A model generated the notes under the pieces. It saw only the letters and a program-made list of their open reading frames with translations, was not told the DNA's origin and searched no databases. The translations under genes and the position numbers were made by a program. 64,000 nt of DNA from Rhizobiaceae bacterium (lineage in GTDB: Bacteria; Pseudomonadota; Alphaproteobacteria; Rhizobiales; Rhizobiaceae): contig JAHBYU010000002.1 in NCBI GenBank assembly GCA_019635775.1, forward strand, positions 402,949 through 466,948, given 5' to 3'. This document shows, one piece after another, positions 11,869 through 27,974 of the stretch. How positions within the stretch are numbered: position 1 is the first letter of the stretch; the number at the start of each line of letters is the position of its first letter.

Positions 11869-13137
11869 CTAGTTCTTGACGACCACTTCCAGTTCGATAG
11901 TCGGCGAAGCGGCTGCGGCCCGTTGCATGGTTTCATTCGCGAAGGTGAAAAGCTCCATCTCCTCGGAGACGCCCGCAAGCCTCTGGCGACCGATACTCAC
12001 CCAGCAGTCGGGCTGGAGATCGACGATGTCCTTTGTGACGAGGGCATCCAGTCCCGTCGCCTTGGTCAGGGATTCGATGCGCGAAACCTCGTTTACGGTT
12101 GGCCCTATGACCGAGAACGTCAGGCGCTGTGATACCCCGATGTTGCCAAACATCACGTTGCCTGTGTTCAACCCTATTCCGAAACGAATTGGAAAAAGTC
12201 CCTTTTCGATACGCGAGGCGTTGAGCCTGTCGCGGGCCTCGAGGACATTGGACAGTGCCGTTGTGGCGGCCCTGACCGCGCTCTTCTGCTCGTCAAGGTT
12301 TCCGTAGGGGAAGATGGCTAGCACGCCGTCTCCGACGAAATCCAAAACCTCTCCACCGGCTTCGATGATCGGCGTTGCGGTCACGTCGAAATACTCGTTG
12401 AGCAATTGAATGAAATCCTGCCCGGGCATGGTATCTGCGAGAGCCGTAGAGTTGCGCAGGTCGTTGTACCAGACGACCGCGCGCGTCTCGCTGCCGTCGC
12501 CGCGCCGAATGGAGCCGGCCAGAACCCTGCCGCCGGCTTGCCTGCCCAGATAGGTTTCCGAGATGTTGCGGGCTATGCGCGACTGGATGGCCGTCTTGCA
12601 TGCGACCGCAAAGCGGCGCTGGATTTTCTTCAGCGCCTCAAGTTCATCATTCGTGAAGCCGCCCGGCCGGTCCGCGGCCCAGGTGGCGATGATACCGAGC
12701 GTCTTGGTCTGATCCATCGCCTCGTTGCGAAGCGCAAGCGCGGTGCGGATTACCAGGTAATCCGTCATGTTCTGCTCGACCAGATCGTTCAGGACGGGAA
12801 AATCAAGCAGACGGGCGGGGCCGTCCAGATTGCGCCTGAGCACGGTCAGGTCATTGTCGAACATGTATTTCATAGGGCTTTCGAGCCAAGCGTCGGAGGA
12901 GTTCTCCTGATGCAGGAACTGCTCGAATTCCGTCTCCTTGCCACGGCGCCAGACGATGGTCTCCGCCTTGAACAACGGGTGGAGGGTAGGCCACGTCAGA
13001 CGTGCCCGGGCCAACGGTATGCCGATGCCGTGCATGCGGGCGCAAAGGCCCTCGAACATGACAACTATATCGGGTTCGCCGAGCGCCTGATCTACCAGCC
13101 ATTCGTTGATTCCGGTTACCAGCGTTGCGTCTGTCAT
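11869..13137 (-). CDS. Soluble class III adenylate/guanylate cyclase
   Basis: This 422-residue protein has a C-terminal class III nucleotide cyclase domain (about residues 215-400) that would make cAMP or cGMP. The metal-binding aspartates are D226 (VVWYNDLRNST) and D270 (DFVGDGVLAIF). The transition-state Asn and Arg are present in VNEVSRIE. Residues 1-180 form an alpha/beta-helical region with no TM segment and a GAF-like feel (LGIIATWAADRPGGFTNDELEALKKIQ), probably a cytosolic sensor. I chose the ATG at 13137 over an upstream one at 13284 because the extra residues run into the divergent promoter and are basic and non-conserved in look. It is transcribed away from the DUF3095 gene across a 135-bp shared promoter region and is the leftmost gene of the cyclic-nucleotide/ABC cluster. 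Confidence 0.9.
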   Translation of the reverse strand: MTDATLVTGINEWLVDQALGEPDIVVMFEGLCARMHGIGIPLARARLTWPTLHPLFKAETIVWRRGKETEFEQFLHQENSSDAWLESPMKYMFDNDLTVLRRNLDGPARLLDFPVLNDLVEQNMTDYLVIRTALALRNEAMDQTKTLGIIATWAADRPGGFTNDELEALKKIQRRFAVACKTAIQSRIARNISETYLGRQAGGRVLAGSIRRGDGSETRAVVWYNDLRNSTALADTMPGQDFIQLLNEYFDVTATPIIEAGGEVLDFVGDGVLAIFPYGNLDEQKSAVRAATTALSNVLEARDRLNASRIEKGLFPIRFGIGLNTGNVMFGNIGVSQRLTFSVIGPTVNEVSRIESLTKATGLDALVTKDIVDLQPDCWVSIGRQRLAGVSEEMELFTFANETMQRAAAASPTIELEVVVKN

Positions 13138-13272
13138 GAGATCCTTCGAACGTCGGCGCACTGAGCCAGCACGGCATGTGGCGTCTTGGTCGCGCTTTTT
13201 TAAGTAGATGGCCAAACCTAAAGGGCGTTTTTTGCGTATTATGGTGCGGCCCTGACGGAGATCATAGCCGCC

Positions 13273-14415
13273 ATGACGACCCAAACCGAAGAATTTGCTC
13301 GGTCTCTCAGCGTATCCCAGGAATTTCAGGCGGTTCTCGACGAGGGGCTCTATCGCAGAGTGCCAGACGACTGGCTGATCGTGGTCACCGACGTGGTCAA
13401 TTCACGAAAGGCGATCGCCTCGGGCCGCTACAAGGCCGTGAACATGGCGGGCGTAGGCGTCATAACAGCGCTGATGAACGCCCTGGATACGCAGACTATG
13501 CCCTATATCTTCAGCGGTGACGGATCGGCGTCGATCTGCGCCCCGTCCGACCGGGAGGTAGTCACCGATACGCTGGCGAGAATGGTTGCGTGGGTAAGGG
13601 ACGACCTCTCACTGGACCTGCGCGCCGCCCTCGTTCCCGTTTCCGAAGTGCGGGCTCAAGGTTTCGACCTGCTCGTGCAGGCCACGCGCGTGTCAGATGC
13701 CATCCGAAACTATGCTTTCAGAGGAGGCGGGCTTTCGCGCGCGGAAGCCCTGATGAAGGCTGGAAAGTATGCGGTTCCCGCTGCTCCCGCCGGCAGCCGG
13801 CCCGACCTGACCGGATTGTCGTGCAGATGGTCGCCTATCAGGCCCGCGAACGGGAAGATTGTGTCGATCATCGCGGAGCCGGGGGCAGGGGGAGAAAGCA
13901 GGTTTGCCGCAGCCGCGGAGAAGCTGTTCAACTTGACTGGCATGCAGGGACCGGGCGGGGGGTCTCCCATGCCCAAGGAAGGGCCGAACGGAAAATGGCC
14001 GCCAGACACGCTTGAAATCGAAGCTCGGGCAACCCGCGGCGAACGTCCGCTTTGGCAACATAGGATGCTTCTCTATTTCTGGACACTCTTCGCGTGGTTC
14101 ATACTGTTCACCGGCATGAAGGTTGGTTCCTTCGACAGCCGGCACTACAGGGAATTTACTTCTCTCAACACGGACTATAGAAAATTCCAGGACGGCTTAC
14201 GGGTGACCGTGTCTCTGGGGGACGATGAATTGGACAGGTTGACCAAATTTCTCGAAGGCGAACGATTGGCGAAGAATCTTCGCTACGGGATTTGTGTGCA
14301 AGACAGTGCAATCCTGACCTGTTACGTACCATCAGTGATGTCGGAAACGCATTTTCACTTCCTCGATGGTGCAGGTGGCGGCTATGCGCAGGCAGCGGAG
14401 AACATGAAGTCCTGA
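13273..14415 (+). CDS. DUF3095 protein, cyclase-like
   Basis: The 380-residue protein matches what I know of DUF3095, an uncharacterised family. Its first half reads like a distant class III cyclase or GGDEF fold: IVVTDVVNSRKAI with an Asp at residue 40 where the first metal ligand would be, then IFSGDGSASICAP with Asp83 in a GDG turn at the spacing of the second. No TM is needed before residue 255; a hydrophobic stretch (LLYFWTLFAWFILF, about 257-270) could be a membrane-touching helix. It opens the rightward operon and is divergent from a genuine cyclase, so a role in nucleotide signalling is plausible. That function is inference; the family assignment is firmer. Confidence 0.75.
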   Translation: MTTQTEEFARSLSVSQEFQAVLDEGLYRRVPDDWLIVVTDVVNSRKAIASGRYKAVNMAGVGVITALMNALDTQTMPYIFSGDGSASICAPSDREVVTDTLARMVAWVRDDLSLDLRAALVPVSEVRAQGFDLLVQATRVSDAIRNYAFRGGGLSRAEALMKAGKYAVPAAPAGSRPDLTGLSCRWSPIRPANGKIVSIIAEPGAGGESRFAAAAEKLFNLTGMQGPGGGSPMPKEGPNGKWPPDTLEIEARATRGERPLWQHRMLLYFWTLFAWFILFTGMKVGSFDSRHYREFTSLNTDYRKFQDGLRVTVSLGDDELDRLTKFLEGERLAKNLRYGICVQDSAILTCYVPSVMSETHFHFLDGAGGGYAQAAENMKS

Positions 14416-14539
14416 TCGAAAGACGGGTATTCCAGATCATTCCGGGAGTAGTTGTTGCAGGCGGCGCTGATGTCCGTATGGTCGTCGGTGAAATCCTGAT
14501 GGTGCGAGGGAGCATCTCAAGTGGGGCGGGGAATGCGAG

Positions 14540-16426
14540 TTGGATGAAGGTGAGGTCCTCCGCGTCGACGGGCTGAGGGTGGCGTTCGACGTAAACGGTT
14601 CACCGGTCGAGGTCGTCAAGGGCATTGGTTTTCGCGTTTGCGCCGGGGCCGTAACGGCCGTCGTTGGCGAGTCGGGCTCTGGCAAGTCCGTTACCGCGCA
14701 ATCCATCATGCAGATTCTGCCGAAGAACGGGAAAATCGTCGGCGGTACCATCCAGTTTCGCCCCTCAACCGGCGAAATCGTCGACATGGCTACGCTGGAG
14801 CCCAATGGCCAGAGAGTTCGGTCATTGCGTGGCTCATCGGTCACCATGATCTTTCAGGAACCGATGTCGTCGCTGTCTCCGGTTCATACGGTCGGGGACC
14901 AGGTCGAGGAAAGCCTGCGCATCCACGCGCTCGGCAAGGGGATGAGCCGCAAGGAACTGCGCGCGGCCACCGAAGAAACCCTCGGGCTGGCCGGATTTCC
15001 GGACCCGCACCGCGCCTACGAAATGTACCCCTTTGAGATGTCCGGGGGGCTGCGACAGCGGGCGATGATAGCGATGGCGCTAATCTGCCGACCGTCGCTG
15101 CTGATCGCTGACGAGCCGACGACCGCGCTCGACGTGACCGTTCAGGCACAGATATTGAAGCTTCTCAAGGAACTGCAGGCCAAGATCGGCATGGCCGTGC
15201 TGCTAATCACCCACGATCTCGGAGTGGTGGCGAATGTCGCAGACGAGGTCGTCGTCGTCTATGATGGTCGGGTGGTTGAGGCCGGGCCGGTCGAAGAGAT
15301 TTTCCGCAATCCGCAGCACGAATACCTGAAGGCGCTGCTCAACGCCGCGCCGCATTTCGACATGGCGCCCGACCAGCGGCTGGTTGCGCTGCGCGGGGGT
15401 AATCGCGACGTCATCAAGTTGAACAAGCACGAGGGCCGGCGCGTCCAGCCCGCAGACCGGCCGCTTCTTACGGTTTCCAACCTGAGCAAGGTCTACAATC
15501 TTCGAAAGTCCTCGTTCTTTGGCGGAGAGGCCAAGGTCATCCGCGCGGTGGATGACGTGAGTTTCACCATTCGCCGAGGCGAATGCCTCGGGCTGGTGGG
15601 AGAAAGCGGCAGTGGCAAGACGACCGTCAGCAAGATTTTGACCCGCGCCATCACCGCCGACTCCGGTTCCGTCATCTTCGATGATGGCGAGAAGCAGGTG
15701 GACGTTCTGAATCTCAGCGACAGGGAACTCAAGAATTTCCGGCCGCATCTCCAGATGGTTTTCCAGGATCCGGTCAGCAGCCTTTCGCCGCGCATGACGG
15801 TGGCAGACATCCTTCGCGAACCCATGCAGATACACAATCAGGGCAGTCGCTCTGATCAGATGAGACGGGCCAAGGAACTGCTGACGGCAGTCGAACTCGG
15901 CGCAAACGCGCTGAACCGCTACCCGCACAGCTTCTCCGGTGGGCAGCGCCAGCGTATCGGAATCGCCCGGTCGCTTGCAATGAACCCGGACCTGCTGATC
16001 CTTGACGAGCCGGTTTCGGCCTTGGACGTGTCCGTGCAGGCACAGGTCCTCAACCTGCTGAAAGACCTTCAGGAGGAGCTTGGCCTGACATATCTTTTTA
16101 TCGCGCACAATCTTGCAGTGGTGAACTACATGGCGGAACGTGTAGCGGTTATGGCTGCGGGACGCATCGTCGAGATCGGGCCGAGCCGGGCCATCTTCGA
16201 GGCGCCGACTCACCCCTACACACGCGCGCTCTTGAAGGCGGTTCCCTTTGCCGACCTCGATCGGCCGCTGGTTCTGGATGAGCTAGTTCTTAAAGGATCG
16301 TCGGACCCTCGCAACTGGCCCGACGCGTTCCGCGGCGACATGGAAGAGCTTGCCACAATTGATCTGGGCGGCGGGCACGAGGTGCTTGCGCGCCGGAATA
16401 TCGATTTCAGGGAGTTTCACGCATGA
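14540..16426 (+). CDS. ABC importer ATPase, two fused ATP-binding domains (peptide type)
   Basis: This 628-residue protein carries two complete ABC ATPase domains, as in GsiA/YejF-type peptide importers. Domain 1 has GESGSGKS with K49, MSGGLRQR and [10 protein letters not shown]. Domain 2 has GESGSGKTT with K360, FSGGQRQR and [12 protein letters not shown]. Each domain ends with the oligopeptide-transport C-terminal extension ([24 protein letters not shown]). The start is probably TTG at 14540, since no ATG or GTG gives the expected first strand [12 protein letters not shown]. Its stop overlaps the ATG of the binding-protein gene by 4 bp. Together with the binding protein and two permeases it makes a complete importer, in the unusual order ATPase-binding protein-permease-permease. 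Confidence 0.95.
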
Positions 16427-18303
16427 GAATCTTCGCTGTGTTGCTGGCCTTCACGGCCATGATCTGCGCGCCGGCTATTGCCGACGAGGCACCGCTACTT
16501 GCCCCGTTGGTCAAGGACGGAAAGCTGCCGCCCGAGGCCGAGCGTCTTCCCAAGGAACCGCGCGTCGTCACCATCGATGAATCCACCGGGCGAACCGTCG
16601 GCAAGCGTGGTGGTACAATCAACACATTGATGGCCGAGCAGGGCGACCTGCGATTGATGACGGTCTACGGCTACGCCAGGCTGGTGTCGTACAACAGCTC
16701 GCTGGAAATGCAGCCGGATATTCTGCTGGCCTATGAGAACGACAAGAACCGGGTTTTCACGTTCCACTTGCGCCCCGGCCACAAGTGGTCAGACGGGTCA
16801 CCCTTCACCGCCGAGGATTTCCGCTATCAGTGGGAAGACATCCTGACAGACAAGGATATGGAGCGTGGGGGCCTTGATACTGCGCTACTTGTGAACGGCA
16901 AGGGTCCCAAGTTCGAGGTTATCGACGACCTTACGGTGCGCTACACATGGGATGAGCCGAACCCGCTTTTCCTGCCCGCCCTGGCCGCAACGCGTCCACT
17001 CGATATCTACTCTGCGTCGGCCTACCTGAAGCAATTCCACCAGAAATACGCAGATCCGGAAAAGCTTGCTGCCGAGGTGGCCAAGGAAAGGGTCAAGGAC
17101 TGGACACGGCTGCAAATCCGCAAGGCACGCAGTTATCGCTTCGAAAATCCCGACCTGCCTACCCTGCAGCCTTGGACGAACAGAACCGATCCGCCTTCGA
17201 ACCGCTACGTATTCGAGCGTAACCCCTTCTATCACAAAGTGGACCAGACAGGCGCGCAACTGCCTTATGTCGACCAGGTTGTAATCAACATCGCCGAAAG
17301 CTCGATCATTCCCGCCAAGACCGGCTCGGGTGAAAGCGACCTTCAGGAACGCTATCTGAGCTTCGCCGACTACACCTTCCTGAAGGAAGGGGAGAAGCGC
17401 AACGACTACACTGTCCGGCTTTGGACCGTCGGCAAAGGCTCTGCGGTCGCTCTCTACCCGAACCTGAACGCGACCGACGAGGGATGGCGCACGCTTTTCC
17501 GGGACGTGCGGTTCCGGCGCGCGCTATCGCTCGGCATCGACCGCTCGGAGATAAACCAGGTCCTGTTCGCCGGCCTCGCGACGGAAGGCGCCAGCACCGT
17601 GCTGCCCGGCAGCCCGCTGTTCCGCGACGAACTTGGCAGCGCCTATGCCGAGTTCGATCTCGACAAGGCCAACGCCCTGCTGGATGAGATGGGCTTGCAG
17701 CGCGGCTCCAACGGCATCCGGCAGATGCCGGATGGTCGGCCGCTAGAGCTGGTGGTGGAAAGCACCGGTGAAAGCTCGATGGAAGCGGACGTTCTTGAAC
17801 TGGTGACTTCGGACTGGAAGGAACTTGGCATTAAACTTCTGACCCGAACAAGCCAACGAGACCTTTTCCGCAGTCGCGTCGCAGCCGGCGAGACCAATAT
17901 GTCTGTCTGGGCCGGTGTGGACAACGGTTCTCCAACGGCCGATTTCAGCCCGTCTGAATTCGTACCCACCGATCCCTACCAGCTCCAGTGGCCGATGTGG
18001 GGTACCTATACGAGCTCTCAGGGAACCGCCGGGCAGAAAATCGACTACGAACCGGCCCAGAAACTGATTGAACTCTACAACAAATGGCTGACCGCCGAAG
18101 ACGGAGACGACCGGTTGAAGGCATGGGAAGAGATACTCGACATCAACGCCCAGGAAGTCTTCTCCATAGGCATCGTTACCGCGACGCTCGTTCCCGTGGT
18201 CATCTCGAACAAACTTCATAATGTGCCCGCGGAAGGCATTTCGAGCTTCGATCCATATGGATATTTCGCGGTCTACGAGATGGATGCGTTCTGGATGGAT
18301 TGA
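16423..18303 (+). CDS. ABC transporter substrate-binding protein, family 5
   Basis: This is the periplasmic solute receptor of the importer. It has a signal peptide ([20 protein letters not shown]) and then the SBP family-5 pattern: GGTINTL, MQPDILLAYENDKNRVFTFHLRPGHKWSDGSPFTAEDF, FRDVRFRRALSLGIDRSEIN. At 626 residues it is longer than DppA/OppA (about 540), as in the subgroup that handles larger or unusual peptides and opine-like compounds. The ligand cannot be named. There is no lipobox, so it should be free in the periplasm. It is translationally coupled to the ATPase gene (ATGA overlap), and a GC-rich hairpin follows its stop. Confidence 0.93.
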   Translation: MRIFAVLLAFTAMICAPAIADEAPLLAPLVKDGKLPPEAERLPKEPRVVTIDESTGRTVGKRGGTINTLMAEQGDLRLMTVYGYARLVSYNSSLEMQPDILLAYENDKNRVFTFHLRPGHKWSDGSPFTAEDFRYQWEDILTDKDMERGGLDTALLVNGKGPKFEVIDDLTVRYTWDEPNPLFLPALAATRPLDIYSASAYLKQFHQKYADPEKLAAEVAKERVKDWTRLQIRKARSYRFENPDLPTLQPWTNRTDPPSNRYVFERNPFYHKVDQTGAQLPYVDQVVINIAESSIIPAKTGSGESDLQERYLSFADYTFLKEGEKRNDYTVRLWTVGKGSAVALYPNLNATDEGWRTLFRDVRFRRALSLGIDRSEINQVLFAGLATEGASTVLPGSPLFRDELGSAYAEFDLDKANALLDEMGLQRGSNGIRQMPDGRPLELVVESTGESSMEADVLELVTSDWKELGIKLLTRTSQRDLFRSRVAAGETNMSVWAGVDNGSPTADFSPSEFVPTDPYQLQWPMWGTYTSSQGTAGQKIDYEPAQKLIELYNKWLTAEDGDDRLKAWEEILDINAQEVFSIGIVTATLVPVVISNKLHNVPAEGISSFDPYGYFAVYEMDAFWMD

Positions 18304-18345
18304 GATGATGCTGGGGGGGCCTTTCCGCACGTTTACAAGAAGGGA

Positions 18346-18365
18346 ACCGGCGCTGCGGCGCCGGT
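18346..18365 (+). promoter_or_regulatory. GC-rich intercistronic hairpin after the binding-protein gene
   Basis: ACCGGCGC and GCGCCGGT pair perfectly around a TGCG loop, 42 bp after the binding-protein stop and 47 bp before the first permease start. No T-run follows. Such hairpins often stabilise the upstream message, so that the binding protein is made in excess over the membrane parts; that role is inferred. Confidence 0.5.
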
Positions 18366-18412
18366 CCGCCGAGCATTGTGCTGCCCGGCGTCGCGGCGGG
18401 GCGGTCTAGGCC

Positions 18413-19411
18413 ATGTTCTACTACATCTTCCGTCGCGTACTGATGATGATCCCCACGCTGATCATAACCAGCGCGCTGATCTTCGCCATCATCGAGGCGC
18501 CGCCCGGCGACTACCTGGAAAGCTATATCGCCGAACTGAAAGCGCAGGGCGAGGCGGTGGACAATGCGCGGATAGAGTACCTGCGTGAGGAGTACGGCTT
18601 CAACAAATCTCCCATAGAACGCTATTTCACCTGGGTGAGCGGCATGCTTGTCGGCGATTTCGGCTATTCTTTCGCCTACGAGCTTCCTGTAACTGCCGTT
18701 GTGGGGGATCGATTGTTCCTGACGGTCGTGGTGTCGATCGCCACAATCATCTTCACCTGGCTGATTGCCTTTCCGATCGGCATCTATTCAGCGACACGGC
18801 AGTACAGTTGGGGTGACTACGGGTTCACCTTTCTTGGCCTTCTCGGCATCGCTATCCCGAATTTCCTGCTGGCGCTGGTCCTGATGTATCTGGCGAATGT
18901 GTGGTTCGGGACGTCCATCGGAGGGCTCGTTGATCCCGAGTTCGTCGGTCAACCTATGAGTTGGCCCAAGTTCATGTCGGTGCTGAGCCACCTCTGGGTG
19001 CCGGTGATTGTTATCGGGACTGCGGGTACGGCCGGAATGGTCCGTCGCATCCGGGCCAATCTGCTCGACGAACTGCAGAAGCAATACGTCACCACCGCGC
19101 GCGCCAAAGGCCTTCATCCGTTCCGCGCGCTTGTCAAATATCCGCTGCGCATGTCGCTTAACTTCTTCATCTCAGACATCGGCTCGTTGCTGCCAGCGGT
19201 GATATCGGGCGCCGAAGTGGTGGCGATCGTCCTGTCTCTCGAGACGACCGGACCTCTGCTGATAGCCGCGTTGCAGAAGCAGGACATGTATCTCGCCGGT
19301 TCGTTCCTCATGTTCCTGTCGCTGTTGACGGTGATCGGGGTGCTGATTTCCGACATAGCCCTTGCGTGGCTCGATCCGCGCATCCGCCTGAGCGGGGGAG
19401 TGCGCAAATGA
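18413..19411 (+). CDS. ABC importer permease 1 (DppB/OppB type)
   Basis: This is an inner-membrane permease of 332 residues with six TM helices in the BPD_transp_1 fold. The N terminus MFYYIFRRVLMMIPTLIITSALIF is typical of the DppB side. The EAA coupling loop, which docks on the ATPase, is visible as DELQKQYVTTARAKGLHPFR. It has a longer segment than usual between TM1 and TM2 (about residues 45-70, AELKAQGEAVDNARIEYLREEYG), as in YejB-like permeases. Its stop overlaps the start of permease 2 (ATGA), so the two are co-translated. Confidence 0.94.
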   Translation: MFYYIFRRVLMMIPTLIITSALIFAIIEAPPGDYLESYIAELKAQGEAVDNARIEYLREEYGFNKSPIERYFTWVSGMLVGDFGYSFAYELPVTAVVGDRLFLTVVVSIATIIFTWLIAFPIGIYSATRQYSWGDYGFTFLGLLGIAIPNFLLALVLMYLANVWFGTSIGGLVDPEFVGQPMSWPKFMSVLSHLWVPVIVIGTAGTAGMVRRIRANLLDELQKQYVTTARAKGLHPFRALVKYPLRMSLNFFISDIGSLLPAVISGAEVVAIVLSLETTGPLLIAALQKQDMYLAGSFLMFLSLLTVIGVLISDIALAWLDPRIRLSGGVRK

Positions 19412-20577
19412 CGTTGCCCGCAAACGCAACCCCGCTGCCTCATACGGTTTCTGATCGACCTTTCGACCCGGATGCGATCTACCAGTTTACAGATGCCCAG
19501 AAGGCGCTGTTCGAAGCGTCGCAGTTGCGTCTGATGTGGTGGAAATTCAAGCGTCACAAGCCGGCGCTGATTTCAGGCATCTTTCTCGCCGTACTCTACT
19601 TCTCAATTCTGATCTCGGAGATACTGGCACCCTACAATCTCGAGACGCGGAATTCGAAGTTCATCTACGCGCCTCCCCAATCGGTTCATCTCTTCCACAA
19701 CGGGGAGTTCGTGGGGCCGTTCGTCTATGGCTTTGATTTCAAGCTGAACATGGACAACCTGAAGCGTGAATACGTCCCCAATCCGGACAAGGTCCAGCCT
19801 ATCCGTTTCTTCTGCAGTGGCGAAAAATACAAATTCTGGGGCCTGATCGAGGGAAGTTTCCGACTGATGTGCCCAGCCAAGAACGGGACCTTGTTTCTGA
19901 TGGGCACCGACAGGCTTGGCCGAGATGTGCTCAGCCGGATCATCTATGGCGCGCGCATATCGCTGACGATCGGCTTGCTCGGAGTAGGCGTGAGCCTCGT
20001 CCTTGGTGTCGTTATTGGAGGCCTGGCCGGCTACTACGGAGGACTTTTCGACACGCTCAGCCAGCGCCTGATCGAAGTCATCCAGTCGCTGCCATCCATA
20101 CCGTTGTGGCTGGCACTGGCCGCAATTCTGCCCATCACATGGTCACCGATCGTAGTTTATTTCGGCATCACCGTCATTCTGGGTTTGCTGGACTGGACTG
20201 GCCTTGCGCGAACGGTCCGCTCCAAGCTGCTCTCCCTGCGCGAGGAGGACTATGTCTCCGCGGCGCAGGTAATGGGCGCCAACGACCGCCGGATAGTGTT
20301 TCGCCATCTCGTGCCGGGCTTCGCCTCGCACCTGATCGCCACAGCAACCATAGCCATTCCAACGATGATCCTCGGTGAAACGACGCTGAGCTTCCTCGGC
20401 CTGGGGCTGAGGCCTCCAATCACAAGCTGGGGTGTGCTATTAACGGAAGCGCAAAACATCAATGCCGTGGCCTTGTATCCTTGGCTGCTTTGGCCCGTGG
20501 CCCCGGTCATTCTGGTGGTTCTTGCCTATAATTTCTTCGGGGATGGCTTGCGAGACGCCGCAGACCCATACAAGTGA
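19408..20577 (+). CDS. ABC importer permease 2 (DppC/OppC type)
   Basis: This is the second permease subunit, 389 residues. The start at 19408 overlaps the previous stop. An N-terminal cytosolic tail of about 50 residues precedes TM1 (PALISGIFLAVLYFSILISEIL). A large periplasmic loop of about 120 residues follows, with two cysteines (RFFCSGEKY, FRLMCPAK) that may pair. Five further TMs come next, with the EAA loop REEDYVSAAQVMGANDRRI. The DRLGRDVLSRIIYGARISL signature of DppC/OppC permeases is present. The long first periplasmic loop resembles YejE of the microcin C/peptide importer group. Acts with the two preceding subunits. Confidence 0.94.
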   Translation: MTLPANATPLPHTVSDRPFDPDAIYQFTDAQKALFEASQLRLMWWKFKRHKPALISGIFLAVLYFSILISEILAPYNLETRNSKFIYAPPQSVHLFHNGEFVGPFVYGFDFKLNMDNLKREYVPNPDKVQPIRFFCSGEKYKFWGLIEGSFRLMCPAKNGTLFLMGTDRLGRDVLSRIIYGARISLTIGLLGVGVSLVLGVVIGGLAGYYGGLFDTLSQRLIEVIQSLPSIPLWLALAAILPITWSPIVVYFGITVILGLLDWTGLARTVRSKLLSLREEDYVSAAQVMGANDRRIVFRHLVPGFASHLIATATIAIPTMILGETTLSFLGLGLRPPITSWGVLLTEAQNINAVALYPWLLWPVAPVILVVLAYNFFGDGLRDAADPYK

Positions 20578-20671
20578 CGAGCATGCGCGCATTGCGTGAA
20601 GAACCGACCGTTCCGCCGCATGGGCGGAGGAAAAGTTTGGGCCGCGTGATTTCGAGGCGAACGAACCCGGC

Positions 20672-23350
20672 ATGAACGACAGGATGGAACCAAACCTGTT
20701 TAGGTACATCTGGAAGCATTCCAGACGCCAGCAGATATGGATTCTGATCGTCGTCGCGCTGTCCATGCCGACCTATTTCCTTGCTTTCGACATTCCCAAG
20801 CAGATCGTGAACGGTCCGATTCAGGGCGGCGGTTTCGAAACGCCGGATGCGACCCAGAAAGTCATGCCCGTCGTCATAGGCAACCCGTTCGGCGATCAGT
20901 CCTTCACACTCTTCGAGGGTTTCGAGGTCGGCCGAATGGGCGCGTTGATCGCGCTCTCAATGGCATTCTTAGGCTATGTCATCATCAACGGCTGGTTCAA
21001 GCTTTACATAAATACCTACAAGGGCAGGCTCGGCGAGCGGATGCTCCGCCGACTGCGATACCAACTCGTCGACCGGGTGCTGCGGTTCCCTTTCCCGCAA
21101 TACAAGCGGGTAAGAAGCTCCGAGATCGCAACGATGATCAAGGACGAAGTCGATCCGCTCGGCGGCTTCATCGGCGAAGCCTTCGCGACGCCGGCGTTCC
21201 TGGTGGGGCAGGCGGGCGCCGCCCTGCTGTTCATCATGCTGCAAAGCTGGGCGCTTGGTCTCGTGACACTCGCGATCCTGATGGTGCAGACGATCCTCAT
21301 TCCCAAGCTGAGGGCGCGTCTGCGCGATCTGGCACTGCAACGCCAGCTGACGGCGCGTGACCTGTCGGGCCGGGTCAGCGAGATCGTCGATGGGGCCATC
21401 GACATTCGCCTGAACGACAACACGAACTTCGAGCGCGCCGACATAGCGGACCGTCTGGCGAAGATCTTCTTCATCCGGTTCGACTTCTACCAGTGGAAGT
21501 TCATGGTGAAGTTCATCAACAACTTCCTGGCGCAGTTCACGCCCTTCGTCTTTTACCTGGGCGGCGGCATTCTCGCGATCCGCGGAAGTCTGGACATCGG
21601 CCAGCTCGTGGCGGTCATCGCCGCCTACAAGGACCTGCCGGGACCGATAAAGGAACTGATCGACTGGGATTATCAGCGTCTCGACGTTCAGGTGAAGTAC
21701 ACGCAGGTCGTCAATGCGTTCGACGTATCGCCGCTGGCTCCGCCGGATACACAGGCATTGCAGACGGAGTCGGTGCCACTGCTCGATGGTCCTTTCGTCT
21801 TCCGGCAGGTTTCGGCGATGGACGAGTCGGGAAAGACCCTTCTTGAGGGGCTGGACCTTACGATCGATCTGCACGAGAACGTTGCCGCGGTCGGAACGGC
21901 AGGCGACGGCGCTGAGGTCCTTGGGGAACTGATCGCAAGATTGATAATGCCGTCGGCCGGCACACTGAATGCAGGGTCGCAATCGCTTACATCTCTTCCC
22001 GAATGGGAAACCGGGCGGCGCATAGGCTATGTCAGCGCCGAGCCATTCTTCGCGCATGGAACGGCTCGCGAGGCACTGCTGAGCGGGCTGCGTCACGCAC
22101 CGTTCCGGCCGCCGCCCGAAGGCTCGGGCCTGACGCCGCTTTTCCTCAAGGAGGCGACCGCTTCCGGCAATCCGCAGTTCGACCGCAGGGCGGACTGGGT
22201 GGACTACAACGCGGTGGGAGCCCAGACGGAAGAGGAGCTCGCGAAACGGATCACGGAAGTGCTTGCGCTGGTCAACCTCCAGGAGGACTTTTACGCCTTC
22301 GGCCTTCGCACCAAGCTTTCGGATGCGACCGAGGGGGCAGGGGAGGAGATGTTCCTCAACGCGCGCCGAATATTCCTGGAGCGCCTGACGGAAGGAGACA
22401 ATGCGGCAGACGTCGAACCGTTTGTGCTCACCCAATTCAATTCCCAGCTGACGCTGTTCCAGAACATTTCCTTTGGCGCGACGTCCACACGGATCACCGT
22501 GCCGAGCGAGTTCCCGGCCGACTCCCCGCTTTGGGCCTTCCTGACGGAAGATGAGCTTGACAGAAAACTCTATCAGCTTGGGAGAGAAGCATCGGCCGTT
22601 ATCGTCGACCTGTTCGGCGAGGTATCGGACAACATGAAGATCCTCGAACGCCTGGACCTGATCGATCCGGTCAAGCTGCCGGATTACAGCGCCTTGCTTG
22701 GACGCACCGAAGGCGTCGACTTTGCTTCTGTCTCGACCGACGACCGGCGAAAGTTCATCGGGGTTGCATTGAACTACAACGAGCCTCGGCACCGCCTCGA
22801 CCTGCTGAGCGACGATCTGCGGGACGCGATCGTCAGGGCGCGAATGAGCTTCAGGGAGAGGCTTCCTCCCGAACTGGCGGCTGAGTTCTCATTCCATGAT
22901 CCCGATGAGATAAACCCATACGCGTCGCTGCAGGACAACATCCTGTTTGGCCGCATAGTGGATGGCCGCGCCGGGGCCGTTGATCGGGTCGGGACGCTGC
23001 TTCGCCAGATACTGGAGGAACTAGGCCTTTCCTACGCCGTTCTTGAGCGTGGCCTGAAATACGAGATAGGGTCTGGCGGACGTCGGTTGTCCCTCTCGCA
23101 GCGCCAGCAACTAGGACTGGCGCGTGTACTTTTGCGCCGGCCGCAGTTTCTGGTCGTCAATCGTGGGCTTAACGCTCTCGATAATCGAACGGTCGAAAGG
23201 GTTGTCCGAGGCATTCTTGACATGGCAAAATCCAGTTCGCCGGGATTTGGTGTGCTGTGGATCACATCTGCCGAATCCCAGGCGCAGCTTTTTGGCAGGA
23301 CGCTGAAATTTGCGCGCGGGGCGCTGATTTCCGACGAGACGACACAATGA
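20672..23350 (+). CDS. ABC-exporter-like protein with degenerate ATPase domain and large insertion
   Basis: An exporter-type TM domain fills about residues 1-325: hydrophobic helices near 22-45, 90-112, 176-215 and 285-312, and the typical segment RLRYQLVDRVLRFPFPQYKRV. The nucleotide-binding domain that follows is broken at every key position. The P-loop reads GTAGDGAEV (408-416), with Ala414 and Glu415 in place of Lys and Ser/Thr. The signature is LSLSQ (806-810) instead of LSGGQ. Walker B ends Asn830-Arg831 instead of Asp-Glu. The H-loop is ITS (Ser866) instead of ITH. Between the first Q-loop-like segment and the signature lie about 290 extra residues, mostly helical and acidic. The frame is intact over 892 codons, so the losses look selected rather than decayed. 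It probably does not hydrolyse ATP and may be a sensor or scaffold. It lies 94 bp after the importer permeases and 40 bp before the cNMP-binding gene. Confidence 0.85.
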   Translation: MNDRMEPNLFRYIWKHSRRQQIWILIVVALSMPTYFLAFDIPKQIVNGPIQGGGFETPDATQKVMPVVIGNPFGDQSFTLFEGFEVGRMGALIALSMAFLGYVIINGWFKLYINTYKGRLGERMLRRLRYQLVDRVLRFPFPQYKRVRSSEIATMIKDEVDPLGGFIGEAFATPAFLVGQAGAALLFIMLQSWALGLVTLAILMVQTILIPKLRARLRDLALQRQLTARDLSGRVSEIVDGAIDIRLNDNTNFERADIADRLAKIFFIRFDFYQWKFMVKFINNFLAQFTPFVFYLGGGILAIRGSLDIGQLVAVIAAYKDLPGPIKELIDWDYQRLDVQVKYTQVVNAFDVSPLAPPDTQALQTESVPLLDGPFVFRQVSAMDESGKTLLEGLDLTIDLHENVAAVGTAGDGAEVLGELIARLIMPSAGTLNAGSQSLTSLPEWETGRRIGYVSAEPFFAHGTAREALLSGLRHAPFRPPPEGSGLTPLFLKEATASGNPQFDRRADWVDYNAVGAQTEEELAKRITEVLALVNLQEDFYAFGLRTKLSDATEGAGEEMFLNARRIFLERLTEGDNAADVEPFVLTQFNSQLTLFQNISFGATSTRITVPSEFPADSPLWAFLTEDELDRKLYQLGREASAVIVDLFGEVSDNMKILERLDLIDPVKLPDYSALLGRTEGVDFASVSTDDRRKFIGVALNYNEPRHRLDLLSDDLRDAIVRARMSFRERLPPELAAEFSFHDPDEINPYASLQDNILFGRIVDGRAGAVDRVGTLLRQILEELGLSYAVLERGLKYEIGSGGRRLSLSQRQQLGLARVLLRRPQFLVVNRGLNALDNRTVERVVRGILDMAKSSSPGFGVLWITSAESQAQLFGRTLKFARGALISDETTQ

Positions 23351-23390
23351 GGGCGTTCATGAGTTTTCCCGCCGATCCCAGGAGGATCGT

Positions 23391-23846
23391 ATGAGCCTTG
23401 AAGAAGATGCCTTGCTGCTCGCCAAGGTGGAGCTTTTCGCCAATGTGGCGCCGCGCAGGCTTAAGCTGCTTGCCCTTGCGTCCAGCCGTGTCCTCTTCGC
23501 CGCCGGCCAGGATTTGTGCGTCGAGGGCGATGAGGGTTACGAGGCGTTCATTCTGGTGTCCGGTGAAGCCGACGTGAAGATCAAGACCCTCACGGGCGTC
23601 GCGACGGTCGCAAGGCTGAAACGCAACGACATCGTAGGGGAAATGGCCATCCTTCGCGACATGCCGAGAACCGCAACCGTCACCGCCGTGTCGGACGTCT
23701 CGACACTTCGTATCGGAAAGCAGGACTTCCTTAATCTGCTCAAGGAATTCCCTGAGGTCACCGTCGAGGTCATGCGCTCATTGGCTGAACGCCTGGCCCG
23801 CACCACCAGCGAACTGGCGAATTTGCGTTCCGCCGCAAAGGCGTAG
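23391..23846 (+). CDS. Stand-alone cyclic-nucleotide-binding protein
   Basis: A single cNMP-binding domain of 151 residues, without a DNA-binding HTH, kinase or channel attached. The phosphate-binding cassette is intact: Gly83-Glu84 (VGEMAIL) contact the ribose and Arg93 in PRTATV the cyclic phosphate. A helical tail (VTVEVMRSLAERLARTTSELA) could mediate dimer or partner contact. A strong AGGAGG site precedes the ATG. It follows the degenerate ABC protein and precedes the hydrolase by 3 bp, so it is firmly in the operon. It probably transmits the level of the cyclic nucleotide made by the flanking cyclases to a protein partner, perhaps the transporter; that is inference. Confidence 0.92.
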   Translation: MSLEEDALLLAKVELFANVAPRRLKLLALASSRVLFAAGQDLCVEGDEGYEAFILVSGEADVKIKTLTGVATVARLKRNDIVGEMAILRDMPRTATVTAVSDVSTLRIGKQDFLNLLKEFPEVTVEVMRSLAERLARTTSELANLRSAAKA

Positions 23847-23849
23847 GGA

Positions 23850-24710
23850 ATGTCGCCTGCAACCGCAATCGATGTACGGGTTTGGGGAGCGCGGGGAACG
23901 TTCCCCATGGTCGGCGCGGAAGCACTGGAGTTTGGCGGACAGACCTCCTGCGTCGAAGTTCGCGCCGGCGGCGGTGTGATAATCCTGGACGCCGGGAGTG
24001 GAATCATCCCGCTTGGAAAGTCGTTGCTGGAGGAAGGCGTAACGGAGATCGACCTCTTCTTCAGCCACGTGCATTACGACCACATCATCGGTCTTCCCTA
24101 TTTCCTGCCGGCCTTCTGGAACAAGGCGAAGCTGCGTATCTGGGCAGGGCACATGCTGGACGACGCCACGACCGAACAACTGGTCGACGGTATTTTTCGC
24201 CCGCCATACTTTCCTATCACTAAGGAGTATATGCGCGCAGACGTCGAGTACCACAGGTTCTCGCCCGGCGATGTCCTTGAGCCGTCTCCTGGAGTTCGTC
24301 TCGTCACTGGACGGCTGAACCATCCGAACGGGGCGGTTGGGTACCGGATGGAAAGAGAAGGGGCGGTTTTCTCCTACCTTACGGATTTCGAGCATGACGA
24401 GGGCCGGGGCGACGATGAGGTGAGGAGGCTTGCCGCAGACGCGGACCTTGCCCTGCTCGACACGACCTACACGCCCGAAGAATATCCCCGGTATGTCAAT
24501 TTCGGCCATTCCACGTGGGATCACGTAGGCAGGATGTGTGCGCAAGCCCGCGTGCATCGCTGGGGCATGTTCCATCACATGCACATGCGCGAGGATATTG
24601 ATCAGGCGGCAATCGAGAGCGCCGCGCAAAAGATCTACCCCAACTCCTTTGCGGTGAGGCAGGGACAGCACTTCCAGCTCTTTGGCCGAACGGAGCGCGA
24701 TCGCAAGTGA
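23850..24710 (+). CDS. Metallo-beta-lactamase-fold hydrolase, possible cNMP phosphodiesterase
   Basis: This MBL-fold enzyme of 286 residues has the dinuclear metal site H73-x-H75-x-D77-H78 (FSHVHYDHI), a later His in LNHPNG, an Asp in YLTDFEHD and a terminal His in NFGHSTWDH. The opening WGARGTFPMVG and LDAGSGIIPLG are shared with MBL phosphodiesterases (PhnP/RNase Z-like and class II cAMP phosphodiesterases). Members of this fold hydrolyse phosphodiesters as well as thioesters, so the true substrate is open. Because it sits between a cNMP-binding gene and a cyclase gene (4-bp GTGA overlap with the latter), cyclic-nucleotide hydrolysis is the simplest guess. Confidence 0.85.
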   Translation: MSPATAIDVRVWGARGTFPMVGAEALEFGGQTSCVEVRAGGGVIILDAGSGIIPLGKSLLEEGVTEIDLFFSHVHYDHIIGLPYFLPAFWNKAKLRIWAGHMLDDATTEQLVDGIFRPPYFPITKEYMRADVEYHRFSPGDVLEPSPGVRLVTGRLNHPNGAVGYRMEREGAVFSYLTDFEHDEGRGDDEVRRLAADADLALLDTTYTPEEYPRYVNFGHSTWDHVGRMCAQARVHRWGMFHHMHMREDIDQAAIESAAQKIYPNSFAVRQGQHFQLFGRTERDRK

Positions 24711-26068
24711 ACTCCTCGCCGCCGCGGTACAAGCGCTGGCTGATACCGATACTGGGCCCGCGCACCTCCAAGGTGATGCCCACGCAGGTAGAGGTTGCGA
24801 TCCGCGAGCAGGAGAACCAGGGCGAGGTTCTGGCAAAGATCGTTCAGATGGTCATCGCTACGGTCTGGGGTGCGCTATACTTGGTGTCGCCACAGGTGCG
24901 CAGCGAGCACCTTCTGCTTATCCCTGTGGCCGTTGGCACATACATGCTGGTAAACGGGTTGCTGTTGCTATGGGCATGGCGCCGGCGCTTGCCGAACTGG
25001 GCGGTCTATACGTCGATCATATTCGACATGTTCGTGCTCTATTTTGTCATATGGCGGTTCCATATGCTGCTCGATCAGCCGCCGGCCTATTATCTGAAGG
25101 CGCCCACGATGACATTCGTGTTTGTTTTCATAGTGTTGCGGGCGCTACGCTACGATCCGCGCTTCGTACTCGTAGCAGGCGCCGCTGCCGTCGTCGGCTG
25201 GCTTGTGCTGGTAATTTATGCAATCGCGAATGATCCGTTTGGCCTGGGGACGTCCTTCAACATGAAGGACTACGCGATTAGTGCCGCCGTCTTTCCAGGC
25301 GCCGAGACAGAGAAAATTCTCGCCATTGTCCTGGTGACCGCCATTATCGGGTTGTCGATCTATCGCGGCAGAGAACTTCTGGTACGGGCGACAACGGAAA
25401 CGATGGCGGCCCGGCGACTTTCTCGGTTCTTCGACAGCAGCGTTGTCGAAGACATTCGGTCAGGCGAAAACGGTATTCTGCCGGGGGAGGGACGGGCGCG
25501 TGACGCGGCAATCCTCAATGTAGACATCAGGGGATTCTCAGGGCTTATCGAACACCTGTCGCCCTCGGAATCCATTGCGCTCCTTACGGATTATCAGGCT
25601 CGCGTGGTGCCGATCATACAGGCGAATGGTGGCGTGATCGACAAGTTCATGGGTGATGGGATCATGGCCACGTTCGGCGCGGTGCGCGACACGGACACCT
25701 ATGCGGCGGATGCAATGCGGACCATGGAAGCCATCATGTACGACTTTCGGGATTGGAGCAAAGATGCCCGGCTGGCGGAAATCGCCAGGTGCGGGATCGG
25801 CCTGTCTGTTTCCGCCGGTCCCATCGTTTTTGGTGCAGTGGGCGACAGCGAGCGCATGGAGGTCACGGTCATCGGCGCGACGGTGAATATCGGCGCGAAG
25901 CTCGAAAAGGCCAACAAGTTCTTTCAGAGTATGGCCGTGGCGACGCGACGCGCCTTCGATATGGCTGTCGGGCAGGGCTATCAGCCAAAGCGGGTGCCCG
26001 AGTTCATCGCAGCCGATGTGGAAGGGCTTGCGCCCCAATCTCAGCTGGCGATCTGGAGGAGCATTTAG
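24707..26068 (+). CDS. Six-TM class III adenylate/guanylate cyclase
   Basis: This is a membrane cyclase of 453 residues. Six hydrophobic segments (about 42-62, 68-90, 98-118, 133-148, 157-175, 203-219) form the membrane domain, and the catalytic domain occupies about residues 262-430. The metal ligands are D273 (NVDIRGFSG) and D317 (FMGDGIMATFG). In the transition-state motif VNIGAKLE the Asn394 is present, but the Arg is replaced by Lys398, a change also seen in other VNxxxKLE cyclases. The GTG start overlaps the hydrolase stop. Its stop abuts the stop of the convergent deacetylase gene. It ends the operon and may receive an envelope or quinone-like signal through its TM part. Confidence 0.92.
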   Translation: MNSSPPRYKRWLIPILGPRTSKVMPTQVEVAIREQENQGEVLAKIVQMVIATVWGALYLVSPQVRSEHLLLIPVAVGTYMLVNGLLLLWAWRRRLPNWAVYTSIIFDMFVLYFVIWRFHMLLDQPPAYYLKAPTMTFVFVFIVLRALRYDPRFVLVAGAAAVVGWLVLVIYAIANDPFGLGTSFNMKDYAISAAVFPGAETEKILAIVLVTAIIGLSIYRGRELLVRATTETMAARRLSRFFDSSVVEDIRSGENGILPGEGRARDAAILNVDIRGFSGLIEHLSPSESIALLTDYQARVVPIIQANGGVIDKFMGDGIMATFGAVRDTDTYAADAMRTMEAIMYDFRDWSKDARLAEIARCGIGLSVSAGPIVFGAVGDSERMEVTVIGATVNIGAKLEKANKFFQSMAVATRRAFDMAVGQGYQPKRVPEFIAADVEGLAPQSQLAIWRSI

Positions 26069-26830
26069 CTAGACGATTTCTTTCTGCAGCGGCGTCCAGC
26101 GTGCAGTGCCACTTTCGGCGAAGGTTTCGAGCAGGACTTCCGTGAAGTCCCACGTGGCATCGTCATGGACCAGATGGTGCGTAAGGATTCCGTATGGTTC
26201 GGCATTGTCGGCTACGCCTGTCCTGCGAGCCGCCAGTTCCCGCGCCAGTTGCGTGTCGAGCATCTGCGGGTCCAGCAAACCGCCTCCGGATTTCCACGCA
26301 ACCGGGTCGAGATGGGTGTTTATCTGCAGAACGCCCTTCGCCGCGAAAGGCGCGCCACGCGGCGTGAAGGCGGAAAGCGCGCGAAATCCGGCCGTGCCGA
26401 GCCGGTCGGTCACTGCGGGTGCAATCCGGTTCCAAGGCGGGACGAAGGCGGGAAGCGCGATTTCGCCGAACATGGCGGCAAGCCGCTCCCGGCCAGAGGC
26501 CATTTCATCCAGCATGACTGGCAACGGCCGGTGTGACCCGAACTCGGCCTTCTTCTGGTCGGCTGGTGCGTGATTTGCGTGTTTCCATCCATGCGTAAGG
26601 ACGAAGACGCCCCGAGTTAAACGAAGTCGCTCCGACAGGTCGGACGTTGCAGGTTCGGCCACGACCGCGAGATGAATCGGCGCTTCGAATCTGCCGGCGA
26701 TCGACAACAGGCGTTCCAGCGCCGGGGTTGGCTCCACAGCGTCGTCATCGCGCCACCAGAGCGGCAGCACCAGGTTTTGGTCACGCCAGCGCTCAAGTTC
26801 CGCACGGGTCAAGGCAAGCTTGGCCTTCAT
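26069..26830 (-). CDS. Polysaccharide-deacetylase-like protein
   Basis: The 253-residue protein has a NodB-like layout: LPLWWRDDDAVEPTPALERLL near the N terminus (catalytic Asp pair), a His in LTHGWKHANH that would bind the metal, and PAFVPPWNRIAP in place of the usual catalytic RxPxG segment. A final ILTHHLVHDD supplies the last conserved His. The subgroup is the short polysaccharide deacetylase type found beside glycosyltransferases. It would remove N- or O-acetyl groups from a growing glycan. Its ATG overlaps the stop of the glycosyltransferase gene before it (4 bp), so it is the last gene of the leftward operon. Confidence 0.75.
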   Translation of the reverse strand: MKAKLALTRAELERWRDQNLVLPLWWRDDDAVEPTPALERLLSIAGRFEAPIHLAVVAEPATSDLSERLRLTRGVFVLTHGWKHANHAPADQKKAEFGSHRPLPVMLDEMASGRERLAAMFGEIALPAFVPPWNRIAPAVTDRLGTAGFRALSAFTPRGAPFAAKGVLQINTHLDPVAWKSGGGLLDPQMLDTQLARELAARRTGVADNAEPYGILTHHLVHDDATWDFTEVLLETFAESGTARWTPLQKEIV

Positions 26831-27972
26831 CCGCGTGCTTCCAGCATCTGGATCAGCGTGCGAGCGGTCTCGGCAGCACCGTCAAAGTTGGGTTTTTCAT
26901 TGGTAATGCGGGGACGCCAAACGGCGGCGTTCACTTCATCAGCCAGATTTTGTGCCGTGAGTTCATGCTCTGCAATCAAGCCGTAACCGTACCGCTGCCG
27001 GAGCGATTCTGCACGCAACGTCTGCTCTGTCTCGCCGGCTTCTGAGAACGGCACGAAGACTCCGGGTACCCCGGACTGGAGCCAGTCGATTGCAGTGTTG
27101 TAACCGCACTGGCCGACTGCGGCAGCGCAGCGCGTGAGCATTGCGCGGTAGTCGGCGCGAAGCGGTTCGGCCACCAGCGGAGCACCCTGCGCCGACTGGT
27201 TCAGCTTTTCACAGAGATATTGCGCGTCGCTTCCGCCAACAAGAAGACGCCATCGGTGATCGGCGAGCCGGGAGGCTTCGATTGCCGTGTCGAACAGCTT
27301 GCGTCCGACCGAACCGCCGCCAGCTGTCACAATGACTTCTCCAGCGCCATGGACATCGCCAGGTAAGACAACGGGCATGGGTGGCGCGATAAAGCCTGTG
27401 TAGCGAAGCATTCGTCTGATGCCAGGCGTGACCGGCCAACTCGCCTCAAGGGGCGCGACATCGGCGTCCGAATGCACCAGCACCCCATCATAATATTCCG
27501 CCAACCATTCTTCCGTTTGTCGCGCCTTTTTCTCGTTGGACGGAGGAGCGAGAATGTCGCGGATGGATGAAAGAACCATCGGCGGTCTATCCAGCCCTCT
27601 TACGGCCGCGAGCGCGGTCAGAAACTCGTCACGAAGGACCCGCCGCCCGAAAGGGAACAGTTCGGTGATAAGCACGTCTGGAGGAGACTGGCGCAACGTC
27701 TGCCCGATCAGATCTATACGCTCCTGCATCAGCTCAAGTGAGACCGGATTGTCGCATTTATCCAGAAGCCGGGTGAAAGTAGCGCCGTCGGACCGGATGG
27801 GTGGAAGCTGCACCAAGTCGATACCCGCAAGATCGAAGTGGCCAGCCGGCATGCCGCCTGATACGACCTGAGGTGTCAGGCCGGCCCCGGCGAGGGCCCT
27901 TGCGATCGTCAGCGATCGGCTGAGATGCCCCGTACCGAGAAGATGCGTGACAACGATCGTGACGCGTTTCAA
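26827..27972 (-). CDS. GT-B glycosyltransferase, GT28/MurG-like
   Basis: A 381-residue GT-B enzyme. It opens with VTIVVTHLLGTGHLSRSLTIARAL, where Gly-x-Gly-His matches the acceptor-side loop of MurG-like transferases. The C-terminal half has VTAGGGSVG, QCGYNTAIDWLQSGVPGVFVP and the ETEQ segment of GT28-type donor-binding sites. A shared segment (SSIRDILAPP) recurs in the 30897-32102 protein as LGIRDILDSP, so the two look like paralogues within one operon. The sugar donor cannot be named. It starts 3 bp after the phosphatase stop and overlaps the deacetylase start. Confidence 0.85.
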   Translation of the reverse strand: MKRVTIVVTHLLGTGHLSRSLTIARALAGAGLTPQVVSGGMPAGHFDLAGIDLVQLPPIRSDGATFTRLLDKCDNPVSLELMQERIDLIGQTLRQSPPDVLITELFPFGRRVLRDEFLTALAAVRGLDRPPMVLSSIRDILAPPSNEKKARQTEEWLAEYYDGVLVHSDADVAPLEASWPVTPGIRRMLRYTGFIAPPMPVVLPGDVHGAGEVIVTAGGGSVGRKLFDTAIEASRLADHRWRLLVGGSDAQYLCEKLNQSAQGAPLVAEPLRADYRAMLTRCAAAVGQCGYNTAIDWLQSGVPGVFVPFSEAGETEQTLRAESLRQRYGYGLIAEHELTAQNLADEVNAAVWRPRITNEKPNFDGAAETARTLIQMLEARG

Positions 27973-27974
27973 TG

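Follow-up and report, generated by a model that had tools for sequence, protein, structure and literature searches.

The window analysed is a 64,000-nucleotide stretch of the genome of a Rhizobiaceae bacterium (GCA_019635775.1, contig JAHBYU010000002.1, positions 402,949 to 466,948). It contains a gene cluster that encodes, together with nucleotide cyclases, an ATP-binding cassette (ABC) importer and glycosyltransferases, an ABC-exporter-type membrane protein with degenerate ATPase motifs, designated dABC, and a small protein with a cyclic nucleotide monophosphate (cNMP)-binding domain. A preliminary description of positions 11869 to 26068 had listed ten genes, and all ten are present with the expected domains in the open reading frame (ORF) list and in a Pfam search of the window (Table 1); the recurrence of the set in many genera exceeds chance. 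The importer is complete, as described, with a fused DppD/F-type ATPase with intact Walker motifs, a solute-binding protein (SBP) with an N-terminal hydrophobic stretch and two permeases. ORF starts overlap the preceding stops at 16423, 19408 and 24707, as had also been noted, and these overlaps fit a single plus-strand operon. The conserved unit reaches past 26068. The minus-strand region 26069-32168, with four glycosyltransferases and a deacetylase-like gene, belongs to it, so that it extends at least up to 32.2 kb (about 11.9-32.2 kb). In two close relatives the genes at 32328-36683, sugar-nucleotide genes among them, are also part of the locus, taking it up to 36.7 kb; the lyase, FkbM and epimerase genes are locus members here and in close relatives, outside the core. 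No RNA families were found at 9-38 kb, and no tRNA genes in the window.

Table 1. Genes of the cluster and adjoining region, in window positions. TM, transmembrane; AF2 pLDDT, AlphaFold2 predicted local distance difference test score.
Feature	Position	Strand	Remarks
CYC1, soluble class III nucleotide cyclase	11869..13137	-	ATG start 13137; PF00211 5e-09; no TM segment
DUF3095, predicted tandem cyclase-like fold	13273..14415	+	PF11294 8e-109; AF2 pLDDT 90.3
Importer fused ATPase, DppD/F type, start codon uncertain	14540..16426	+	Two ABC_tran, oligo_HPY; Walker motifs intact
Importer solute-binding protein (SBP_bac_5)	16423..18303	+	PF00496 1e-60
Importer permease B (PermB)	18413..19411	+	PF00528
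Importer permease C (PermC)	19408..20577	+	PF00528, OppC_N; ATG overlaps permease B stop
dABC, ABC-exporter-type membrane protein, ATPase-dead nucleotide-binding domain with duplicated segment, 892 aa	20672..23350	+	
Stand-alone cNMP-binding protein, 151 aa	23391..23846	+	PF00027 5e-19
Metallo-beta-lactamase (MBL)-fold hydrolase, possible cyclic-nucleotide phosphodiesterase	23850..24710	+	PF12706 1e-15; HxHxDH
CYC2, membrane class III cyclase	24707..26068	+	PF00211 6e-07
PDA, deacetylase-like gene	26069..26830	-	No Pfam match; 26/61 loci
GT28-type glycosyltransferase	26827..27972	-	PF04101; 35/61 loci
Histidine phosphatase, start uncertain, non-core	27975..28541	-	PF00300; 6/61 loci
GT4 glycosyltransferase a (GT4a)	28562..29653	-	PF13692; 31/61 loci
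GT4 glycosyltransferase b (GT4b)	29650..30900	-	PF13692; 41/61 loci
GT28x, MJ1255-like glycosyltransferase	30897..32168	-	TIGR00661 2e-07, below cut-off; 39/61 loci
Polysaccharide lyase, non-core	32328..33137	+	PF14099 3e-31; 9/140 loci
FkbM methyltransferase, non-core	33134..34387	+	PF05050; 7/140 loci
NDP-sugar epimerase/dehydratase, non-core	34297..35409	+	PF01370; 4/140 loci
UDP-sugar dehydrogenase, TviB-like	35406..36683	+	NF011729 583 bits, just under cut-off 592; 24/140 loci, low identity

When the 892-aa dABC was used as query against 297 genomes from the order (E <= 1e-30), 99 genomes gave matches, at 113 places; in four of the 99 the match is limited to residues about 522-868. With limits per genome search chosen to catch orthologues (SBP 1e-100, GT28x 1e-60, MBL 1e-40, DUF3095 1e-20), the SBP and GT28x were each found in 90 of the 297 genomes, all among the 99 with dABC, and in none of the 198 others. 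Besides the four genomes with partial matches, five dABC genomes are without an SBP; four of these are 67-92% complete and in the fifth, 97% complete, dABC is cut by a contig end. Of 123 genera, 56 have dABC, 53 have GT28x and 51 have the SBP. That the locus genes form one system, as first proposed, is strongly supported because the SBP and GT28x sets lie wholly inside the dABC genomes; the importer without the rest was looked for, and all 90 SBP genomes carry dABC. In two genomes (G006 and G039) the importer is on another contig, and the co-occurrence with dABC still holds. Among 200 genomes of the phylum, dABC is present in 15, the window's own counted, all inside the class.

Neighbourhoods of up to 20 kb were fetched around 60 of the 113 dABC places, taken mostly down the ranking rather than at random, and their genes were clustered; as the fetched stretches are clipped, distant genes are undercounted. 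In these 60 neighbourhoods plus the window (61 loci), dABC is present in 61 and cNMP in 54, followed by DppDF (31, a family that in this clustering holds fragments and may include paralogues), MBL (27), CYC2 (24), PermC (22), PermB (19), SBP (18), a further cyclase (14), a short-chain dehydrogenase/reductase gene that is not in the window (12), CYC1 (11) and DUF3095 (10), with the counts for the minus-strand families listed in Table 1. A second set was drawn from named species genomes, in which at least 487 relatives were confirmed. In the best 80 of these, cNMP is present in 80, DppDF in 67, GT28x and GT4b each in 58, GT28 in 57, SBP in 51 and MBL in 39. The best 80 are mostly from Rhizobium, Mesorhizobium, Sinorhizobium/Ensifer, Phyllobacterium, Agrobacterium and Aureimonas, and also include Cypionkella, presumably a Rhodobacterales-type genus, and one gammaproteobacterium (Plasticicumulans).

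The dABC protein has an exporter-type TM domain (PF00664, 2e-19), and both sequence searches and a structure model (pLDDT 82, with two short stretches <50) compared by Foldseek match ABC exporters. Its nucleotide-binding domain (NBD) is opened by an insertion with a repeat, residues ~554-639 aligning with 713-796 (probability 98.7, E 2.5e-16). When identical sequences from loci L031-L175 and the window are collapsed, 141 distinct dABC sequences remain, and none has the Walker A Lys, the position being occupied by Ala (71), Gly (35), Arg (24) or others (11). At the position of the Walker B Asp there is Asn in 116, Asp in 20 and Glu in 5. The ABC-like protein with a dead ATPase of the preliminary description is exporter-like with a degenerate NBD. 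Conservation is highest in the TM part: in an alignment of 36 sequences, ~100 of the first 350 residues are invariant. No paper describing a dead ABC protein linked in this way to a cyclic nucleotide was found in the open-licence PubMed Central (PMC) literature; two papers on a 'pseudo-ABC transporter' deal, as far as their excerpts go, with SufBCD and with a zinc gene of mycobacteria rather than with the dABC family.

The gene directly after dABC is the cNMP gene in 131 of 139 loci, with a median gap of 59 bp; a 140th locus, whose dABC ORF could not be parsed, is left out of this count. Four of the eight exceptions are fusions in which dABC itself has a C-terminal cNMP domain; in the other four no cNMP orthologue was identified by script, and a profile search finds a cNMP domain in three of them. 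Including six further loci picked for their long frames (one repeats L089, a locus already counted), which prove the existence and not the frequency of fusions, there are nine distinct dABC-cNMP fusion ORFs from eight genomes and six genera. By profile search, a cNMP domain is present in 59/60 and 80/80 loci of the two sets. The loci have 154 ORFs with such a domain; ten of these match dABC, with L089 entering twice, and no match to an importer gene was found. The stand-alone cNMP-binding protein of the preliminary description is borne out: the window protein consists of 151 aa with a lone cNMP domain and no TM segment, and in the two members scanned Pfam finds no domain but this one. Its Sinorhizobium meliloti counterpart is labelled a Crp/Fnr regulator, and at ~154 aa has no room for a DNA-binding part. 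The phosphate-binding cassette is kept (G83 in 132/132, E84 in 127/132, R93 in 129/132), and by this motif the protein appears competent to bind a cyclic nucleotide. Thr follows the cassette Arg in 117/132, and a Thr at this position allows or favours cGMP. In L089 the fused domain is, by eye, without the cassette Arg. One site outside the cluster, at 7682-7697 of the window, fits a Clr-like motif perfectly.

In CYC1 the metal-binding residues had been given as D226 and D270, which is correct when counted from the ATG at 13137; from an upstream TTG they are D275 and D319. Both are kept in 35/35 CYC1 sequences, with the transition-state Asn in 33/35 and Arg in 34/35, and the position of the ATP-type base Lys is occupied by Ser in 24, Asp in 4, Lys in 4 and others in 3. 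This position is Glu in the aligned Cya2 chain, titled guanylyl cyclase in one listing and adenylate cyclase in another, and Lys in a chimera named adenylate cyclase. In CYC2, over the PF00211 cut-off, both metal Asp and the Asn are present in 28/28 and the base Lys in 27/28. CYC2 has a membrane N-terminal part, as in the preliminary description, for which a simple hydropathy scan gives five TM segments rather than the six noted there. A third type, present in 14 loci, is a membrane cyclase with a 2Fe-2S motif in 14/14 (Pfam Fer2 in the one member scanned); in these loci it occupies the cyclase place after the cNMP gene, as at 12967-14634 of locus L063, with a possible redox input. With our own profile, cyclase ORFs are found in 45/60 and 42/80 loci. 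The 60-locus set has 53, roughly 18-fold over the ~3 expected for that length, a rough ratio as the expected number comes from PF00211 counts and the observed from our own profile.

The DUF3095 gene is divergent from CYC1, and 21 sequences of the family have invariant D40 and G82-D83-G84. In Foldseek the model is matched best by human soluble adenylyl cyclase, over its two-domain core (E 2e-4, probability 0.99, TM-score 0.38, root-mean-square deviation 11.7); seven matches have E <0.001, and one of them is Csm1 (Cas10). This resemblance to tandem adenylyl cyclase domains is a lead, not proof: at the level of sequence the assignment to class III cyclases was rejected, as the profile comparison is non-significant, and support comes from the fold comparison alone, with modest TM-scores. 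No significant match was found to sequences of solved structures, nor any paper on DUF3095 in the open-licence PMC literature. In S. meliloti RCAM1750 (CP050512.1, locus L182, 7187-8309) the gene is unannotated and occupies two overlapping frames.

The MBL protein keeps the metal motif HxHxDH, and a role in closing the loop by removing the cyclic nucleotide, as first suggested, is plausible. Its assignment to NF041851, which we take to be the Rv1339-type cyclic-nucleotide-degrading phosphodiesterase, is not supported: it scores 38.1 bits against a cut-off of 400. Scores are higher with the RNase Z models, but no model is above its cut-off. Two solved structures match, weakly.

On a pSymB-type replicon of S. 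meliloti, 15 of the 20 genes in Table 1 have counterparts within about 22 kb. At 37% identity, the UDP-sugar dehydrogenase match is a weak and possibly generic one, and the PDA counterpart (38% identity) is annotated as a polysaccharide deacetylase; window-type CYC2, histidine phosphatase, lyase, FkbM and epimerase genes were not found in this block. On pRL11 of R. johnstonii 3841 and on two plasmids of R. etli the genes follow in the order DUF3095, sugar dehydrogenase, cyclase, importer, three glycosyltransferases, dABC and cNMP. According to excerpts of Travin et al. 2023 (PMC10128002), smb21252-smb21271 on S. meliloti pSymB form the phazolicin-protecting polysaccharide (PPP) cluster, proposed to make an envelope polysaccharide. 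Insertions in smb21252 or smb21265 lower the phazolicin minimum inhibitory concentration from 1.47 to 0.18 ug/mL, cAMP is reported to regulate genes possibly making PPP, and A. tumefaciens orthologues of PPP genes turned up in a pyocyanin screen. Excerpts of other papers report that 7 of the 9 genes are up during Myxococcus attack (PMC10315480), call SMb21284 a polysaccharide deacetylase (PMC2848241), which fits puuE, and place purine genes at SMb21286-88 (PMC5596199). Counting down from puuE as SMb21284 agrees within one with GT28x being SMb21265; with that anchor, a GT4 falls at SMb21252, dABC at ~SMb21269 and cNMP at ~SMb21270, by counting and not look-up, and the gene types match those named in the excerpts of PMC10128002. 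The window locus is very probably the same locus as the published PPP cluster. The preliminary description knew of no described system with this set; the PPP counterpart, matched by counting, is in print, and the part of that statement that stands concerns the link of dABC to a cyclic nucleotide, of which no description was found in the open-licence PMC literature. In strain 1021 (NC_003078.1, 841723-844435) dABC is one base longer than in strain 2011 and matches in two frames; this may be a sequencing error or a real strain difference and may bear on PPP work in 1021. An excerpt of PMC11103875 describes pRL110056, which may belong to the cluster, as an R. leguminosarum O-antigen gene needed for root colonisation.

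The gene content, its unity by co-occurrence, the degenerate ATPase motifs, the intact binding motif and the fusions are results of computation. We propose that the locus is an envelope-glycan system with dABC-cNMP, glycosyltransferases and importer as its core, in which a cyclic nucleotide, and not ATP hydrolysis, sets the state of the exporter-shaped dABC, a reading that we consider on balance probable. The locus would make and handle a glycan of the PPP kind, built by the cytosolic glycosyltransferases from precursors that the sugar-nucleotide genes would provide. The membrane component would be dABC, having lost its ATP-hydrolysis residues and presumably acting with the cNMP-binding subunit, in some genera its own C-terminal domain. 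The cyclases would produce the ligand, with the 2Fe-2S motif of one variant family as a putative sensed input, and ligand binding would switch the state of dABC, so that glycan export or assembly would respond to whatever the cyclases sense. Removal of the ligand probably falls to the MBL hydrolase, and the Dpp-type importer would serve the same pathway, most simply by recycling or supplying a building block. In this scheme we infer gating, ligand identity, the glycan, transport direction and the MBL and importer roles. A bolder version, doubtful as it stands, would make dABC a novel type of ABC-fold machine in which a cyclic-nucleotide switch has taken the place of the ATP engine. It would then be a glycan flippase or channel gated by a cyclic nucleotide and served by cyclases of its own; one of these would be DUF3095, as a tandem cyclase in a single chain that has so far gone unrecognised.

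Several results weigh against the proposed switching of dABC by a cyclic nucleotide. No cyclase was found in the fetched stretch of 15/60 and 38/80 loci. In CYC2 the transition-state Arg is replaced by Lys in 27/28 which, with CYC1 mostly without the ATP-type Lys, suggests that the activity or product may be unusual. Fisher p-values for co-occurrence are too small as the genomes are kin. MBL is present in 84 genomes, 79 with dABC, and is absent from 20 of the 99 dABC genomes; DUF3095 is present in 79, 67 with dABC, and is absent from 32 of the 99. Nine of the 12 genomes with DUF3095 and no dABC are from one family, with very high scores, and DUF3095 has a second setting there. Clr/CRP-like DNA sites occur in the window at chance, with 10 hits against 9.7 expected. 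The SMb tags were assigned by counting, and in S. meliloti the neighbourhood of the cluster includes sugar transferase, lipopolysaccharide biosynthesis and O-antigen-ligase-type genes, so dABC may be dispensable for export. Binding, gating and transport are themselves predictions.

The presence of these other genes, which could export, is also consistent with an alternative that we consider unlikely, although not negligibly so, in which dABC and cNMP are a membrane scaffold or regulator that switches a glycosyltransferase complex on a cyclic nucleotide with no transport. SUR1, for comparison, regulates a channel rather than transporting, and degenerate motifs in 141/141 dABC sequences, yet with the TM part best conserved, would be expected of such a protein; the TM part is, however, still ABC-exporter-like by sequence and model, and the contact with glycosyltransferases is hypothetical. 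That the cyclic nucleotide acts through the importer to control how a peptide-like solute is taken up or responded to, the centre of the preliminary description, is improbable. The importer is in the same window operon and strictly tied to the system, and its substrate could be a peptide. As the centre, however, this control is unsupported because no cNMP-importer fusion was found among the 154 ORFs, ten of which match dABC, because the importer is on another contig in G006 and G039, and because the commonest other neighbours are glycosyltransferases. The polysaccharide lyase has no signal peptide by eye or hydropathy and adjoins the importer in two loci (in three others it adjoins PDA), which would fit glycan-fragment import and cytosolic breakdown.

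An ordinary polysaccharide locus with incidental signalling genes, the cNMP protein acting elsewhere and playing no direct part in what dABC does, is quite improbable: cyclases are common (331 in 29 dABC-bearing genomes) and their type is swapped between loci, but the dABC-cNMP adjacency, the repeated fusions and the cyclase excess argue against it. A Pycsar-like anti-phage system of cyclase and cNMP-binding effector, suggested by PADLOC PycC and PycTIR models that match the cyclases and the cNMP protein, is very improbable and was rejected, as the similarity is at the level of shared domains only, the cNMP protein has no TIR or TM part and the glycosyltransferase setting recurs.

The surroundings of the cluster include a gene for a GGDEF-EAL protein upstream (3904-6003) and, adjoining the glycan genes, genes for a D-galactarate/altronate dehydratase and an aldo/keto reductase (36931-39740), possibly for uronic acid breakdown. 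At 52001-60000 the G+C content drops from ~0.64-0.68 to 0.54-0.57, perhaps marking a stretch of foreign origin.

If dABC is switched by a cyclic nucleotide, this would provide a mechanism for a rhizobial locus for a surface polysaccharide that mutant screens and expression data have already brought to notice. According to excerpts of that work, the PPP-type locus confers protection from an antimicrobial peptide, and expression of most of its genes goes up under predation. It would also extend bacterial cyclic nucleotides beyond transcription switching, to the direct control of an envelope membrane protein. The cluster, found in many soil and plant-associated bacteria, appears to produce a protective coat of surface sugars, and in dABC it offers a family of ATPase-dead ABC exporters, conserved over a wide range, with which to ask directly what the ABC fold can do without ATP hydrolysis.

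Among known systems, the type IV ABC exporters (P-glycoprotein, TmrAB, MsbA, PCAT1) resemble dABC in the TM part and the overall shape of the NBD, with a TM-score for TmrAB of 0.55-0.61 by target length, but dABC is without the Walker A Lys, its Walker B Asp is mostly Asn, and its NBD is enlarged with a duplicated segment. The link of a cNMP protein to an ABC-exporter-type partner is common to the TIGR03896 proteins, which are tied to bacteriocin-type ABC exporters; the window protein matches this model far below cut-off (40 vs 161 bits), and the TIGR03896 systems are not known to include glycan genes and have an ATPase-active ABC partner. The Rv1339-type phosphodiesterase and the window MBL protein have the MBL fold in common, with weak similarity. 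In Pycsar (PycC with PycTIR or PycTM), as here, a cyclase gene is beside that of a cNMP-binding protein, whereas the window protein has no effector domain and its setting is one of glycosyltransferases. The closest counterpart is the PPP cluster, presented in the excerpts of PMC10128002 as polysaccharide genes, with the dead ABC protein, its cNMP partner and the cyclases unmentioned there; the window has in common with it the block of 15 of 20 genes and a proposed envelope polysaccharide product.

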